A stretch of 64,000 nucleotides of DNA from Streptomyces nigrescens (lineage in GTDB: Bacteria; Actinomycetota; Actinomycetes; Streptomycetales; Streptomycetaceae). A program made the translations under genes and the position numbers. Shown piece after piece: positions 5,705-22,347 of the stretch (position 1 is the stretch's first letter; the number at the start of each line of letters is the position of its first letter). The stretch is from positions 558,001-622,000 of the forward strand of contig AP026074.1 in assembly GCA_024349765.1 (NCBI GenBank), in the 5' to 3' direction. The notes beneath the pieces were generated by a model. That model saw only the letters and a list, made by a program, of their open reading frames with translations. It made no database searches and was not told where the DNA came from.

Positions 5705-7312
5705 ATGAGCGGGGAGATGATGAGCATGCACCGCGTCCTGACCACCCTGGGATGCGCCCTGACCGCCGTAGTCGCGACGGCCTGGTCCGCGGCACTACCG
5801 TCCCAGCCCGTCCGGCCCGCTGCCACCACGGTACGGACGACCGAGCCCGCCGCCACGACGGTACGCACCCACGACGGCCCGGTGCGGGGCGCCACCCACG
5901 ACGGCTACCGCACCTTCGAGGGCATCCCCTACGCGGCGCCCCCGGTCGGCAGGCTGCGCTGGACGCCGCCCCGTCACCCGGCCCCCTGGTCGGGGGTACG
6001 GGACGCGACCCGCCCCGCGGGCGCCTGCCCGCAGCCGGCCGGCGAGGTGCCCGGCGGCAGCACCGACGAGGACTGCCTCCACCTGAACGTCACGACGCCC
6101 GACGGCGCAGGGCCCGCACGTCCCCGGCCGGTGATCGTGTGGCTGCACGGCGGCGGCTTCACCACCGGAGCGGGCAGCTCGTACGACGCCCACCGCCTGG
6201 CCACCCGCGGCGACGTCGTGGTCGTCACCGTCAACTACCGCCTCGGGGCTCTCGGTTTCCTCGCGCACCGCGGGCTGCCCGGCTCCGGCACCTTCGGCCT
6301 GGCCGACCAGCAGGCGGCGCTGCGCTGGGTCCGCGCCGAGATCGGCGCCTTCGGCGGCGACGCGCACAACGTGACGCTGGCCGGCGAGTCGGCGGGCGGC
6401 TACAGCGTCTGCGCCCAGCTCGCCTCACCCGCCGCCGCGGGGCTCTTCGACCGGGCGATCATCCAGAGCGGCCCGTGCACCGGCCGCTCCGACCGGCCGT
6501 TCGCCCCGTCCTCCGTCCCCTTGTCCACGGCGCGCGCCGCGGGCGCGGACCTCGCGACAAAGGTCGGCTGCGGCTCCACCCGCGAGGTGATGGCCTGCCT
6601 GCGGCGCGTGCACGTCTCCCGCCTGCTGGCACACCAGGGCATCGACCAACAGCCGTCCTACGCAACCCCGTTGCTGCCCGGCGATCCCGCAGCGGCGATC
6701 GCCGCCGGCCGCTTCCCGCGCGTCCCCGTGCTCCTCGGCAACAACCACGACGAGGGCAACGGCTGGGCCGCCGGGATCGTCCAGGCCGGCCATCCCGTCA
6801 CCCCGGACACCTGGCCCGGCGTCGTGGCCTCCTTCTTCCCCGCCCCGGGCCGGACGAAGGCGATCGTCCGCGAGTACCCGGTGCACCGCACCGACGGCGG
6901 CCCGGTGTTCGGCGCGGTCATCGGCGACGCCAACTTCGCCTGCCCGACGGCGCGCACCGAAGACCTGCTCGCCTCCCAAGTCCCCGTCTGGCGCTACGAG
7001 TTCGCCGATGAGCACGCCCCGCCGCTCACCCCGGGCACACCGCCGTTCCCGCCCGGCGCACCGCACGCGAGCGAGCTGCCCTACCTGTTCGATCTGGGCG
7101 GCCGCCCGCGGCACCTGACCGCGGCACAGCACCGGCTGGCCAACACCATGATCGACTACTGGGCCCGCTTCGCCCGCACCGCCGACCCCAACGGCCCGTC
7201 GTCGCCGCACTGGCCCCGCCAGACGGTCCTCTCCCTGGCACCGGACCACATCGTCCCCACCCGAACGACGCGAGCCCGCCATCACTGCGCGTTCTGGAAC
7301 GCCCTCGGGTGA
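5705..7312 (+). CDS. Secreted type B carboxylesterase
   Basis: This 535-residue protein carries an N-terminal signal peptide (hydrophobic core about residues 10-31) and a full type B carboxylesterase domain. The oxyanion motif WLHGGGF is at about 146-152, the nucleophile Ser229 sits in GESAGG, the acid Glu350 in NNHDEGN, and the catalytic His454 in GAPHASELPY. The family hydrolyses carboxylic esters, and the protein should act outside the cell. The ATG at 5705 follows CCGGAGGGGAG; in-frame ATGs at 5717, 5720 and 5726 are alternatives that would still leave a signal peptide. It follows the GPP34 gene by 11 nt. Confidence 0.9.
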   Translation: MSGEMMSMHRVLTTLGCALTAVVATAWSAALPSQPVRPAATTVRTTEPAATTVRTHDGPVRGATHDGYRTFEGIPYAAPPVGRLRWTPPRHPAPWSGVRDATRPAGACPQPAGEVPGGSTDEDCLHLNVTTPDGAGPARPRPVIVWLHGGGFTTGAGSSYDAHRLATRGDVVVVTVNYRLGALGFLAHRGLPGSGTFGLADQQAALRWVRAEIGAFGGDAHNVTLAGESAGGYSVCAQLASPAAAGLFDRAIIQSGPCTGRSDRPFAPSSVPLSTARAAGADLATKVGCGSTREVMACLRRVHVSRLLAHQGIDQQPSYATPLLPGDPAAAIAAGRFPRVPVLLGNNHDEGNGWAAGIVQAGHPVTPDTWPGVVASFFPAPGRTKAIVREYPVHRTDGGPVFGAVIGDANFACPTARTEDLLASQVPVWRYEFADEHAPPLTPGTPPFPPGAPHASELPYLFDLGGRPRHLTAAQHRLANTMIDYWARFARTADPNGPSSPHWPRQTVLSLAPDHIVPTRTTRARHHCAFWNALG

Positions 7313-7810
7313 CCACGGAGACGACCGCCGTGAGGGCCGCCGGATCGGCCGACGGACCCTCACGGCACGGACCCGCGGCGTCGCCCGGGCACCTTCCTCG
7401 TCGTGGCCCTCGGGCGGCTCGTGCCAGGCAACCGCAACGACCGCAAGGCATGCCCGGGGCCTTGCCGACGGCGGCACCGAAAGACACGGCCTGGCCACGA
7501 TGCTGGTGACGTTGGGGTGCGGATTGCCGGCTGCGGACGGTCGACGCGGCCAGCAGATGCGCCCGCTCATAGTTGGTGACACGGTGGTTGTACAGCGTGA
7601 AGCCAGGCCCTACGCACGGAGCCACGCGCCCGCCGGAGGCAGCGCGACGCCGTCTCCATCAGCGCCCGCCCGCCGCGGGGTGGCCGTGGGCATATCCCGC
7701 GAAGACCGTTCGACCGGCAGGTAGGGACGCTTCGATCCTTTGGGCGGGGCGGGTCCAGGGCGTTACCGGCCGGGCAGCCCTGCTCGGCCGATCACCATGG
7801 AGGTGCTGCT
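7313..7810. other. Intergenic, no gene supported
   Basis: About 500 bases with open frames on both strands but none with family features or a convincing ribosome-binding site. The only recognisable element is the GGAGG just before the ATG at 7811. Confidence 0.5.
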
Positions 7811-8536
7811 ATGACTGCCAAGTACGGAGAGAGGACGCTCTCCTCAACCCCCGATCCCCTGTTGTGCGGAAGCAGTACGGACGATGACACTCTCTGGAAA
7901 ATGGCGTGGCAGTGCCAAGAGAGGCCCAAAGGCAGCCGTTGGCTCGTAGCCAAAGGGCAACAGGGACACCTCCTTGTTCCCACCGATCGCATCAGAGGAA
8001 TCGAGTGCCCGGACCTCGTGTCCGGCGCCTACTCCGACAAGGACCACAACTACTGGCAGGTGGCCTGGGACAGAGCCTACGACTGGTTCTCAAAGCCGCC
8101 TTGGGGAACCTTCGGACTGGGGATCAACGCGGCCGGGTCGCGTTCCCAGGACCAGTTGCACATCCACATGTCTCTGGTCGTCCAGGGGGTGACAGCCGAC
8201 CTCAACAACGCATCGGGCGCGGTCGCCAAGGATTTCGATCATTGGCCCTACTGTTTGGTCACGGTCAATGGCTGGGACAACCAGAAGAAGCAGCGTGACC
8301 CGCGGAGCTACCGCGTGGTCCACACCAATACCTTGGATTTCAACCTCTTCGCTGCCCTCCACGACTCCATGATCACCACCATGGGGGAGAAGATGGCCGC
8401 TCAGACGCTGATCGTCATCGGGGCGGGCGTGAGCCAGAAGGAGGGGTACTACATCCTGAACAGCCGGAAAGAGCTCACGAATCCTCCTGATCCCCCGGGA
8501 GTTGGATACTGCGACAGTGTCCTCGCCTGCAAGTGA
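7811..8536 (+). CDS. CDP-diacylglycerol diphosphatase-like (Cdh family), no signal anchor
   Basis: This 241-residue protein matches the Cdh family, which cleaves CDP-diacylglycerol to phosphatidate and CMP and belongs to the HIT superfamily. The pattern is DTLWKMAWQCQ near residue 26, then LVPTDRIRGIECP (about 55-67) and YWQVAWDRAYDW (about 81-92). The catalytic signature SQDQLHIHMS follows near residue 112. Enterobacterial Cdh is membrane-anchored, but this N-terminus (MTAKYGERTLSS) has no signal or hydrophobic segment, so it is predicted cytosolic. Lysine content and A/T-ending codons are higher than in neighbours, suggesting acquisition by transfer. The ATG follows GGAGG. A strong hairpin lies downstream. 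Confidence 0.75.
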   Translation: MTAKYGERTLSSTPDPLLCGSSTDDDTLWKMAWQCQERPKGSRWLVAKGQQGHLLVPTDRIRGIECPDLVSGAYSDKDHNYWQVAWDRAYDWFSKPPWGTFGLGINAAGSRSQDQLHIHMSLVVQGVTADLNNASGAVAKDFDHWPYCLVTVNGWDNQKKQRDPRSYRVVHTNTLDFNLFAALHDSMITTMGEKMAAQTLIVIGAGVSQKEGYYILNSRKELTNPPDPPGVGYCDSVLACK

Positions 8537-8932
8537 GGGTACGCGCGGCCGAGTGTCGCCAGGCAGGGCCATGGGCCTACGGCCCCGGGTCCTGCCCGCC
8601 TGTCTGCGCCGGCGCAACGCCGACGTCACGTCCGCCACCGCGACGCCCTGACCGACGAACGCAAGGCGGCTTTTGACTTCCGACCGGTCCGCCTGTCGGC
8701 GTAGTTGGCCTCGGTGCCACATCGCGATTTTCGCCCAATCCGTATAACCTGTGCGAATCTTCACCCCTTTCATCGGTTTGTAGTAACGACAGGCGAGCCT
8801 TGGCCGCACCGCAGGAATGCGTCCGGGGTGGCGTCAGACAGGCGAACGGAGGCCCGAGGACGTGGTGCGTCCCGCGGCCGTGATCGACTCGTCCGCCCGT
8901 TCGGCCGCCCTATCGGAAGGCATCGAGACACC
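8537..8932. other. Intergenic upstream of cyclodipeptide synthase
   Basis: It holds the hairpin at 8562-8596 and, around 8725-8805, a relatively A/T-rich patch with a TATAAC hexamer at 8743-8748 that could be a -10 box. The frame of the synthase stays open back to 8705, but the encoded sequence there is Arg/Gly-rich and does not match the family, so I treat it as untranslated. Confidence 0.4.
8562..8596 (+). terminator. Long GC-rich hairpin after the Cdh-like gene
   Basis: A 16-bp imperfect stem (8562-8577 with 8581-8596, three mismatches) and a TAC loop lie 26 nt after the Cdh-like stop codon. It probably separates this gene from the cyclodipeptide synthase gene. Confidence 0.55.
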
Positions 8933-9652
8933 GTGCTGCAGGCGAGCCCCGCGACCTCCAACTGCCAGGCCATATTCGGACGGCGAGAGCATGTGCTGCT
9001 GGGCGTCAGCCCGTTCAACAGCCGCTTCGGCGACGCCTACATCGCCCGCTTGGTCGCCTGGGCGCACGCGTCGGTACAGGACTTCGATGTCCTGCTGCCT
9101 GGTGTCGAGCATGCCTCCTGGATTCTGGAAGCGGTCGGTGAGTCCCGCCCCCTGGCCAAGTCGCGCAAGGAAGTGGGGCGCAGGAAGCGTGCGGTGCAGG
9201 AGGCACTGGAGGCCTGCGCGCCGGAACGCCGGTTGGCTGTCCACGACTTCGGTGACTTCGCCGACAACCCGCACTACCTCGGGCTCCGCGACGAGGTGGA
9301 GCGGGTGTTCGCGGCAGACGAGGGCTTCCGGCGCGCCTGCCTGGACATGAGCCGTCAGGCCGTCAGCAGCCGGTTGCGCACGGTCCGGGGCCCCGATGCC
9401 TGCGTCGACGACGGCCAGGCGGCCGCGGCGGTGCGTTACGTGCTGGACGAACTGCCCTACGTCCTGGACGGCGCCACCATCCTCGGCCGTGAGGAGATGC
9501 TCATGGTTTATTATCGGCCCTGGCCGCTGTGGGACCGCATCGAGCGAGGTGAATTCCCCCTCAAGGTCAGCCCCCGCCAGGGATTCCTCGTCCTCCACGA
9601 CTGTGAGGAAATGCGCAGTGGCCTGACGCTGCGCGGTACCGAGCCCCGTTGA
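8933..9652 (+). CDS. tRNA-dependent cyclodipeptide synthase (YvmC-like), NYY variant
   Basis: This 239-residue enzyme belongs to the cyclodipeptide synthases, which use two aminoacyl-tRNAs to make 2,5-diketopiperazines. It resembles Bacillus YvmC along its length: HVLLGVSPFNSRF holds the catalytic Ser26 (AlbC Ser37), and AVRYVLDELPYV holds Tyr169 and Glu173 (AlbC Tyr178/Glu182). FPLKVSPRQGFLV matches the C-terminus. The subfamily positions are Asn29, Tyr193 and Tyr194, where NYH enzymes have His at the last position. The GTG at 8933 is preceded by GGAAGG and gives a length close to YvmC; the start is uncertain because the frame is open further upstream. No oxidase or P450 is adjacent, so it is an orphan. 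Confidence 0.85.
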   Translation: MLQASPATSNCQAIFGRREHVLLGVSPFNSRFGDAYIARLVAWAHASVQDFDVLLPGVEHASWILEAVGESRPLAKSRKEVGRRKRAVQEALEACAPERRLAVHDFGDFADNPHYLGLRDEVERVFAADEGFRRACLDMSRQAVSSRLRTVRGPDACVDDGQAAAAVRYVLDELPYVLDGATILGREEMLMVYYRPWPLWDRIERGEFPLKVSPRQGFLVLHDCEEMRSGLTLRGTEPR

Positions 9653-9724
9653 GGGTGGCGTCAGCGGCTGTCTTGAGCCGGTCATGCGGATGATCGCAGA
9701 ACGTGGAGACGTCGAAGACCGGCG

Positions 9725-9762
9725 CCTGGTCGAGGTCTTCTGCCGGAGCGACCTCGACCAGG
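9725..9762. terminator. Bidirectional hairpin between convergent genes
   Basis: CCTGGTCGAGGTC pairs perfectly with GACCTCGACCAGG across a 12-nt loop. It lies between the ends of the cyclodipeptide synthase (+) and the serine hydrolase (-), the expected place for a shared terminator. Confidence 0.65.
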
Positions 9763-9769
9763 CAGCAGG

Positions 9770-11011
9770 TCAGTCGTCGATTGCCTGGTAGAGGGTGGTC
9801 CAGAAGTCGTGGATGGCCCGTGCCGAATCGGGGGTGGACATCCCGGTCTGGGTGAGCAGGATGCCGATGAGCTGGTTGTCCGGGTCGGCGTAGGTCGTGG
9901 TGCCGGCTCCGCCGTCCCAGCCGAACTGGCCGACGGGCGCGTAGTCGCCGCGGTAGGTGCGCACCGCCATCCCGAAGCCCCAGCCGCCGTGTTGCCCCAG
10001 GCCGAGTGACAAATGGACGAGGTTGCGGGCCAAGGCTTCTCGGGCGGCCAGCTGCTCGGGCGTGAGGCGGTTGGTGGTCATCAGTTCAACGGCGGGCCGG
10101 GACAGGATCCGTTGGTTCCCGTGCATCCCGTGGTGGAGCAGCATCCGGAAGTAGGCGTGATAGTCGTCGACGGTGGAGTCGAGTCCGCCGCCGCCTGACT
10201 GGAACGCCGGAGGCCGGCTGTGGTGTCCCCCTTCGGCCTCGTCCGCCACGATGAACTCTCCGGTCTGCGGATCGGGAGCGCAGAGGGGAGGCAGCCGGTC
10301 GATCTTGTCGGCGGGCACGTGGAAACCGGTGTCCTCCATGCCCAGCGGATCAAAGATGCGTGCACGCAGGAAGTCCTCGAACGACTGGCCGGTGACCCTG
10401 GCGACGAGCACGCCGAGCACGTCGTCGCTGACGTTGTACAGCCACCGTTCTCCGGGCTGGTGCATCAGCGGGAGTGCGCCCAGGCGGCGCATCCACTCAT
10501 CCGGCTCCGGTGCCGGCAACAGCCACCCATCCTCCTGGCCGTAAACCCCCTGCTCGAAGAGCGCGCCCATCATCGGGGAGTCCTTCGCGGTCATATCCAG
10601 GCCGAGCCCGAACGTGGACGTGAGCAGGTCCCGCACGGTGATCGGCCGCCGCGCCGGCACGGTGTCGTCCAACGGGCCGTCGGCCCGCTTGAGCACCCGC
10701 CGGTCCGCGAGCTCGGGCAGCCACCGATCTATTGGGTCGTCCAGCCGCAGCCGGCACTCATCCAGCAGGACCATCGCCGCCGCCACCGCGACCGGCTTGG
10801 TCGTCGAGGCCATCCGGAAGATGGTGTCCCGGCGCATCGGCGCGCCACCGTCAGGGCGCATCGTCCCGATCGCTTCGACGTGGGTCTCCTCGCCGCGGCT
10901 GACCAGGGCGACGAGACCGGGAATCTTCCCGGTCTCGACATGCCGTGCCAGCACGTCGCGCAGTCTGCGCAGCCCTGCTTCGGAGAAGCCGCTGTTGCCT
11001 TTTCCCGTCAT
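9770..11011 (-). CDS. Class C beta-lactamase-fold serine hydrolase
   Basis: This 413-residue protein belongs to the beta-lactamase/transpeptidase-like (Pfam Beta-lactamase) family. Ser69 and Lys72 form the SxxK motif in FRMASTTKPVAV, and the tyrosine motif is ERWLYNVSDDVLGVL near residue 192. No signal peptide is present, so a cytoplasmic esterase or carboxylesterase role (EstB-like) is more likely than beta-lactam resistance. The ATG at 11011 follows AGGGGGATTC; an in-frame upstream extension to 11251 lacks a site and has atypical residues. It is convergent with the cyclodipeptide synthase. Confidence 0.85.
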   Translation of the reverse strand: MTGKGNSGFSEAGLRRLRDVLARHVETGKIPGLVALVSRGEETHVEAIGTMRPDGGAPMRRDTIFRMASTTKPVAVAAAMVLLDECRLRLDDPIDRWLPELADRRVLKRADGPLDDTVPARRPITVRDLLTSTFGLGLDMTAKDSPMMGALFEQGVYGQEDGWLLPAPEPDEWMRRLGALPLMHQPGERWLYNVSDDVLGVLVARVTGQSFEDFLRARIFDPLGMEDTGFHVPADKIDRLPPLCAPDPQTGEFIVADEAEGGHHSRPPAFQSGGGGLDSTVDDYHAYFRMLLHHGMHGNQRILSRPAVELMTTNRLTPEQLAAREALARNLVHLSLGLGQHGGWGFGMAVRTYRGDYAPVGQFGWDGGAGTTTYADPDNQLIGILLTQTGMSTPDSARAIHDFWTTLYQAIDD

Positions 11012-11432
11012 GAATCCCCCTGCATGAAGTGTGCGTTGCACACAATGTTGGTTCTGTGAGGCCCGTCCCCACGTGGAGTCCATGGGCCTTGCACGGGCGC
11101 GTGAGACGTCGCCCGGTTCGCAACCCTGAGGGCGCGATCGCTGTGCCGTTCCAGGCATCCACCAACGGCTCTGATGCTGACTGTCGCCGTCCTGACGTCG
11201 TCTCTGACGTGCGGCGCGAGGTAGCCGGCCGGTGGCTTTGTGACGAGCCACGTCGTCGTCTCGACATGGTTCCGGGCGTCGCAGGCCCGTATGGGGAGGC
11301 GCTGTAGGTCGAAGCGCTGCTCCGTGCCGCGTACGAAGCCACAGCCGGGCATGACCCGTGGCCGCGTAGTGCCGGCAGTCGAGGAAAGTGGTGCCTGGCG
11401 CGCCCCCCCGGGCGTGATGTGCTGCCTTGTTC
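11012..11432. other. Intergenic, no gene supported
   Basis: Roughly 420 bases between two minus-strand transcription units. Open frames here are short and lack start signals or family features. A promoter for the serine hydrolase must lie near its right end, but no clear boxes are visible. Confidence 0.45.
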
Positions 11433-21093: not shown

Positions 21094-22347
21094 ATGTCGT
21101 ACGACCCGACGGCCGCCGACACCACCACCGCAGCCGCCGCCACTGCCGGCACCACTGATGAGCCGCCCACCCTGCCCACCGACCGCCACACCGGCTGCCC
21201 CTTCGACCCGCCCGCCGCACTCACCGCGCTGAGCGACCAGCCGTTGCGCCGCATGCGCTACGCCGACGGACACATAGGCTGGCTGGCCACCGGACACGCC
21301 GCGGCCCGCGCGATCCTGGCCGACCCGCGCTTCAGCTCACGCAACGAACTCCTGCACCCTCCGGTACCGGTCCCAGGGATGCCGGAGGAGCTGCCGCCGG
21401 CGCCGGTCGGCGACATCACCGGCCTCGACGCCCCCGAGCACACCCGCTACCGGCGCCTGCTCACCGGCAAGTTCACGGTCCGCCGCATGCGTCAACTCAC
21501 CGAACGCGTCGAGCAGTTCACCACCGAGTGTCTGGACGCCATGGAGCAGGCCGGGCCCACGGCCGACCTGGTGGCGGCGTTTGCGCAGCCCGTGCCCGCG
21601 CTCATGATCTGCGAGCTGCTCGGCGTGCCGTACGGCGACCGCGAGCGCTTCCAGAGCCAGGTGGCGACCATCTTCGACCAGACGGCGGATGCGGAGGCGA
21701 AGGGCGAGGCCTATACGGCGCTGCTCCAGTACCTGAACGAACTGGTCCTCGCCAAGCGGGCCGAGCCCACCGACGACCTGCTCAGCGATCTGACCACCTC
21801 CGACCTCACCGACGAGGAACTCGCCGGCATCGGCGGACTGCTGCTCGCCGCCGGACTCGACACCACCGCGAACATGCTCGGCCTCGGCACCTTCGCCCTG
21901 CTGAGCAACCCCGATCAGCTCGACGCCCTGCGCGCCGACCCCGGCCTCGCCGAGCAGACCGTGGAGGAACTGCTGCGCTACCTCAGCGTCGCCGACCCGA
22001 TTCTGCGGGCAGCGCTCGAGGACGTCGAGGTGGAGGGCCAACTCATCAGGGCGGGGGAGACGGTGACCGTTTCCGTGCAGGCCGCCAACCGCGACCCGCG
22101 GAAGTTCCCCGACCCCGACCGGCTCGACATCCACCGCAAGGCCACCGGACACGTCGCCTTCGGGCACGGCGCCCACCAGTGCCTGGGCCAGCAGCTCGCC
22201 CGCGTCGAGATGGCCGTCGCCTTCCCGGCGCTGCTCGCCCGCTTCCCCACCCTGCGCCTCGCGGTGCCGCCGCAGGAGGTGCCGCTACGCGACCGCTCCA
22301 ACATCTACGGCGTGATCAACCTGCCCGTCACCTGGGACAAGGAGTAG
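21094..22347 (+). CDS. Cytochrome P450 (CYP105-like)
   Basis: This 417-residue soluble monooxygenase has all P450 landmarks: the I-helix oxygen-activation motif AGLDTT (253-258), ExxR (Glu292-Arg295) and the heme-binding loop [11 protein letters not shown] with Cys363 as thiolate ligand. The overall pattern ([25 protein letters not shown]) resembles Streptomyces CYP105 enzymes, which hydroxylate varied hydrophobic substrates. The ATG follows AGGAGGACCTT. The ferredoxin gene starts 4 nt after the stop and is its likely electron donor. Confidence 0.93.

Follow-up and report, generated by a model that had tools for sequence, protein, structure and literature searches.

The window, a stretch of 64,000 nucleotides from contig AP026074.1 of Streptomyces nigrescens, encodes a real, rather divergent member of the cyclodipeptide synthase (CDPS) family that belongs to the YvmC clade and has tyrosine in the column of AlbC His203. 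We favour the view that this protein is a divergent cLL-type synthase, probably active and with an altered first-substrate pocket. Its family, alignment, clade, pocket residues and genomic context were observed directly and are given first.

The window CDPS within the YvmC clade

The open reading frame begins with GTG, ends in TGA and contains no frameshift or internal stop:

8933 to 9652, forward strand: cyclodipeptide synthase of the YvmC clade, 239 residues, signature Asn29-Tyr193-Tyr194 (Pfam, NCBIfam and PDB matches, alignment, trees)

The translated protein matched the Pfam CDPS profile PF16715 with 194.8 bits (E 2.1e-57, profile positions 2-219 of 220) and TIGR04539 with 197.5 bits (E 2e-58), exceeding both curated cut-offs (27 and 45 bits, respectively) over its full length. 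Its closest PDB match was YvmC (3oqh, E 2.2e-51), followed by BtCDPS and a Staphylococcus cLL synthase, with Rv2275 and AlbC as far weaker matches. Upstream of the GTG at 8933 the frame stays open to a TTG at 8705; the GTG start gives an N terminus near that of the Staphylococcus enzyme in length, and a GGAAGG lies 12 bases 5' of it, which is a weak argument for a ribosome site. GC content by codon position was 0.73/0.47/0.85, and the frame therefore reads as a coding gene. A structure model derived from two aligned rows was of low quality (mean pLDDT 53.9).

The original prediction had described the protein as resembling Bacillus YvmC throughout and as carrying the catalytic Ser, Tyr and Glu of cyclodipeptide synthases, and both descriptions were borne out. 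Identity to YvmC of Bacillus licheniformis, an NYH-type cLL synthase, is 44.8% over 221 aligned positions, and in a 64-row tree the two proteins fell in the same 12-row clade (support 100/99), together with two Priestia enzymes, BtCDPS, five Staphylococcus-type rows and two Streptomyces enzymes (L084 and L235). Trees of 51 and 63 rows agreed with this placement; the 63-row tree held the first of the Streptomyces relatives, and addition of the second in the 64-row tree left the picture unchanged. The inner order of the clade was weakly supported, with 88/36 at the fork that places the window CDPS. An AlbC-anchored alignment located the key residues as follows:

9008 to 9019, forward strand: codons of catalytic Ser26 to Asn29 (AlbC S37 to N40; alignment and sequence)
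9437 to 9451, forward strand: codons of Tyr169 to Glu173 (AlbC Y178 to E182; alignment)
9458 to 9463, forward strand: codons of Tyr176-Val177 (AlbC 185-186, in pocket P1; alignment), Phe-Phe in other clade rows
9509 to 9514, forward strand: TAT TAT, Tyr193-Tyr194 (AlbC Y202-H203; sequence and alignment)

Residues S26, N29, Y169, E173, Y193 and Y194 thus correspond to AlbC 37, 40, 178, 182, 202 and 203, and the catalytic S37, Y178, E182 and Y202 are all present, as Ser26, Tyr169, Glu173 and Tyr193. YvmC likewise has S37, N40, Y178, E182 and Y202, but His203 where the window CDPS has Tyr. Within the second segment, Asp172 (AlbC 181) stands against Ala in the other clade rows. By phylogenetic position the protein belongs to the NYH subfamily, falling among NYH enzymes in trees built without a named XYP reference, but it lacks the strict N40-Y202-H203 signature, of which two of three residues are kept (Asn, Tyr, Tyr). 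Proline at 203, the hallmark of XYP enzymes, is absent, its place being taken by Tyr194.

Within the clade the window CDPS sits on the longest end branch (0.95), and it differs at 12 of 54 positions that are invariant among the other rows. The other clade subgroups differ at fewer such positions (3/46, 0/42, 8/54 and 7/51), figures that are not strictly comparable, as group sizes differ and multi-member groups were scored where all members differ. At family-conserved sites, 5 of 28 are broken, which ranks the protein 21st of 185 rows; by this measure it is no outlier and has no wreck-like look.

The two Streptomyces enzymes (L084 from G669 and L235 from G1367) are each 43.7% identical to the window CDPS, with almost no difference between the two (branches 0.015 and 0.038). 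Although of the same genus and clade, they are NYH enzymes with pockets LGLAIFFL / MKAGQWE, unlike those of the window CDPS, and each has a TIGR04538-type P450 directly downstream, which the window CDPS lacks. These pairs are:

L207:7207-9250 (G669) and L242:6345-8388 (G1367): YvmC-type CDPS with CypX-type P450, Streptomyces

Against the CDPS-associated P450 model (cut-off 500) the P450 of L207, which is 54% identical to a Priestia P450, scored 503 bits and that of L242 just under the cut-off, 496.6. From their sequences the two loci are apparent chromosomal yvmC-cypX, pulcherriminic-acid-type gene pairs in Streptomyces. Genes for an RtcB-like protein and a heavy-metal P-type ATPase, identified by Pfam in L207 and by size and order in L242, lie close to both.

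Orthologs of the window CDPS with more than 45% identity were absent from the matches listed in the searches made. An exact short-peptide scan of genome contigs, which rules out close relatives only, found no relative, an alignment-based scan returned one Staphylococcus locus, and the viral contigs and phage records searched held none. Of 398 genomes in the class to which G959 (Staphylococcus lugdunensis) belongs, 3 contained a CDPS, G959 included. Among plasmid-borne relatives compared by protein, the best were Staphylococcus and Priestia enzymes (35-38%).

Residue 203 and the substrate pockets

The numbering Asn29-Tyr193-Tyr194, with tyrosine in the His203 column, proved correct by alignment, and Tyr194 is the only tyrosine there among 206 full-length CDPS-like rows. 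Residue 203 was His in 193 of these and another residue in 13 (Ser 4, Arg 3, Pro 2, Gln 2, Asn 1, Tyr 1). The rows, drawn from the matches listed, were mostly from Streptomyces and included five PDB chains; identical cores had been merged, and 11 of 217 rows that were short or gapped at position 202 were dropped. A minimum of 6 changes between His and not-His was needed on the 64-row tree, in which the non-His rows are included, and 6 also on the 63-row tree, which indicates that His203 was replaced several times. Two NYQ rows carried DmtB1-like pocket residues, in agreement with the published Gln203 of DmtB1 and thus a check on the alignment. No Tyr203 cyclodipeptide synthase appeared in the literature searched, which comprised the main texts of open papers. 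Tyr203 is unique in our sample, while departure from His is already published (Gln203) and other departures recur in the family.

DmtB1 of Streptomyces youssoufiensis is described as an active enzyme of the NYH subfamily in which residue 203 is likewise not His (PMC6173783). Where the window CDPS has Tyr203 it has Gln203; it belongs to the cWX group, is encoded in a three-gene operon and yields five DKPs (PMC6173783). The plasmid-encoded cLL synthase of Staphylococcus haemolyticus (PDB 6ez3; NC_007171) is of the same clade and shares a similar P2 and a short N terminus with the window CDPS, but combines Thr40-His203 and an adjacent P450, in contrast to Asn40-Tyr203 and no P450 here. Residue 40 of this Staphylococcus chain, a cLL synthase by its PDB name, is Thr, so the 40/203 pair allows some variation within the clade. 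Residues 40, 202 and 203 give the CDPS subfamilies their names, and a working Asn-Tyr pair, if true, would loosen that rule, in line also with the published Gln203 and with the Arg, Ser, Pro and Asn rows among the 206. If active, Asn-Tyr would be another stable loop-holding pair beside Asn-His and X-Pro. Its value would be modest and enzymological, a help in predicting products from sequence; the system as such is not new.

In AlbC, N40A and H203A strongly impaired activity, and the two residues contact each other via water and keep the dipeptidyl geometry (PMC5935735). Simulations of AlbC in the same study, in which alanine variants at N40/H203 disturbed the catalytic loop and the dipeptide, prompted the suggestion that the enzyme tolerates only certain 40/203 pairs (PMC5935735). 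The published residue lists give P1 as 33, 35, 65, 67, 119, 185, 186 and 200 and P2 as 152, 155, 156, 159, 204, 206 and 207, and contain 203 in neither (PMC5816076). Because position 203 lies outside the listed pockets and holds the catalytic loop together with N40, a change there bears first on catalytic geometry; the earlier proposal that the tyrosine itself alters tRNA or amino-acid choice was not upheld by these sources.

A comparison of the two specificity pockets with those of YvmC found likeness in part. P2 reads MQASRWP against MAAGRWK in YvmC (4/7 identical), with MDASRWK in BtCDPS and MQASAWE in Staphylococcus. P1 reads LGLPFYVM against LGLAFFFL (4/8 identical); L33, G35, L65 and F119 are kept, and likeness breaks down at A67P, F185Y, F186V and L200M. 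Position 186 in DmtB1 is reported to shift product ratios (PMC6173783). Judged by these alignments, F185Y, F186V and A67P would be a better basis for arguing a shift in specificity than Tyr203. With a cLL-like P2 and a changed P1, we would expect a leucine-like second residue and regard the first as uncertain. Residues K76, R78, K79, R83 and R86 were invariant in a four-row alignment, and by our own assignment they may lie on the tRNA-binding helix described for NYH enzymes (PMC13062777).

Genomic surroundings

The window lies on contig C2 (1.07 Mb) of a 9.33-Mb genome in two contigs; no repeat was shared between the first 8 kb of C2 and its last 8 kb, or between these and the first 8 kb of C1. 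The features that bear on the CDPS are:

C2:555451-556428, outside the window, about 10.5 kb upstream of the CDPS: P450-like match
2247 to 2969: PCMT-type methyltransferase
7811 to 8536, forward strand: CDP-diacylglycerol pyrophosphatase-like protein, upstream neighbour (PF02611, E 4.6e-22; below NCBIfam cut-offs)
8584 to 8666, no strand assigned: transposase-like stretch of 83 bases between the pyrophosphatase-like gene and the CDPS (matches in several relatives)
9770 to 11251, reverse strand: beta-lactamase-fold serine hydrolase, downstream neighbour (Pfam)
21094 to 22347: P450, 11.4 kb downstream of the CDPS (NCBIfam comparison)

As had been claimed, no tailoring enzyme is adjacent: the immediate neighbours are the pyrophosphatase-like protein and the serine hydrolase, and no P450, oxidase or small-molecule methyltransferase adjoins the CDPS. 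Upstream are GPP34, carboxylesterase and the pyrophosphatase-like genes and, farther away, histidine kinase-like and response-regulator-like frames named by eye from their translations; downstream on the other strand, the serine hydrolase is accompanied by a DUF1048 protein and a PadR regulator. The pyrophosphatase-like gene has a GC content of 60%, below its surroundings, and proteins related to its product, at about 31-34%, are encoded on Streptomyces plasmids. Between 7200 and 9900 no promoter-like or terminator-like site was found (sigma-70 consensus only), repeats in 6800-10500 were short imperfect pairs, and the window held no tRNA gene.

The linked CypX P450 of the cLL/pulcherriminic acid system has no adjacent counterpart here. 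The P450 at 21094-22347 matched a pentalenolactone-synthase model best (256.6 bits, below its cut-off) and reached 121.8 bits against the CDPS-associated model. The best CypX-like P450 of the genome (L209, C1:4289910-4291238) scored 362 bits against the cut-off of 500, and the CDPS-associated model was by far its best NCBIfam match. It was set aside as a tailoring partner because its orthologs are mostly in relatives without a CDPS: a search of 60 other genomes found them, at 67-72%, in 11, of which 3 have a CDPS.

In relatives, DDE_3-type transposase genes, which we take to be of the IS630 type, contain in their 3' part a sequence 74-83% like the 83-base stretch at 8584-8666. When four matching places were scanned with Pfam, three lay inside DDE_3 frames and the fourth overlapped a frame with HTH domains only; by this likeness the stretch probably represents what is left of a transposase gene. 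Both flanking genes, for the carboxylesterase and the serine hydrolase, have matches in plasmid records (16 records, 14 of them Streptomyces), and none of the places listed there covers the CDPS.

Activity, decay or re-tuning of the enzyme

We infer activity, product and the role of Tyr194 from these comparisons. If the protein works as a synthase, one aminoacyl-tRNA would enter P1 and its aminoacyl group would be parked on Ser26, a second aminoacyl group would be added from a second tRNA, and the dipeptide would be cyclised with Tyr193 as proton relay, the order of steps that the papers cited above worked out for AlbC. Tyr194 would replace the second-shell His that holds the catalytic loop together with Asn29. 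Since other family members vary in the 40/203 pair, we expect activity to remain, perhaps lowered. Given the cLL-like P2 and changed P1, cyclo(Xaa-Leu) or cLL would be the probable product, and no linked CypX step would follow. The retained catalytic residues and Asn40, the clade support, the likeness in P2 and the variation at 40/203 elsewhere all point towards an active synthase, whereas the H203A effect, the long branch, the missing ortholog and partner and the transposase remnant speak against it and would also fit a decaying import. A single-base sequencing error may be a further caveat.

Loss of activity is the main rival, and we consider it somewhat unlikely. Here the gene would be a decaying, horizontally acquired cLL synthase under weak selection, its CypX lost or never brought, with Tyr194 crippling the enzyme much as H203A impairs AlbC (PMC5935735). 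His to Tyr would be a single C-to-T step from CAT to TAT, and the run GTT TAT TAT is, by eye, unusual for a GC3 of 0.85. Among 100 genomes searched, a match to the whole 2.4 kb of 7300-9760 came from the genome itself alone, the other 99 giving pieces below 100 bases (three candidates scored per genome), and the transposase remnant adjoins the CDPS. The two nearest Streptomyces relatives retain His203 and the P450; we gave decay more weight because these near-identical proteins count as one witness and because the window CDPS has the most broken clade-invariant positions. Against decay, the other catalytic residues are kept, no frameshift or stop is present, the breaks at conserved sites stay within the family range (rank 21/185, as above), and DmtB1 is a published active precedent with Gln203 (PMC6173783).

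Returning to an active synthase, a bolder version, in which a fully active Asn40-Tyr203 pair is coupled to a re-tuned P1 giving a cyclodipeptide foreign to other YvmC-clade enzymes, seems improbable. Ranked third after decay, and quite improbable, is a special case of the active, altered-P1 enzyme in which Tyr194, Asp172, Tyr176, Val177, Val192 and Trp200 form an adaptive package remodelling the catalytic loop and P1: the clustering of altered clade-invariant positions in AlbC 178-209 (6/15, vs 6/39 elsewhere), absent from the four other subgroups, and the effect of position 186 on DmtB1 products would agree with it, but the choice of segment was post hoc and the difference is not significant (Fisher p 0.07).

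Two further groups were noticed among the Streptomyces rows. One CDPS group (L088, L151 and L163) has Arg203 and common pocket motifs FGAPFFLF / MGVTAPA. Three CDPS-like proteins (L148, L149 and L152) have His/Ala at the catalytic Tyr178/Glu182 and Ser at 203; among the four Ser203 rows, three are without Y178 and E182 and possibly inactive as CDPSs, and from their residues these three proteins are perhaps a related family with a different function.
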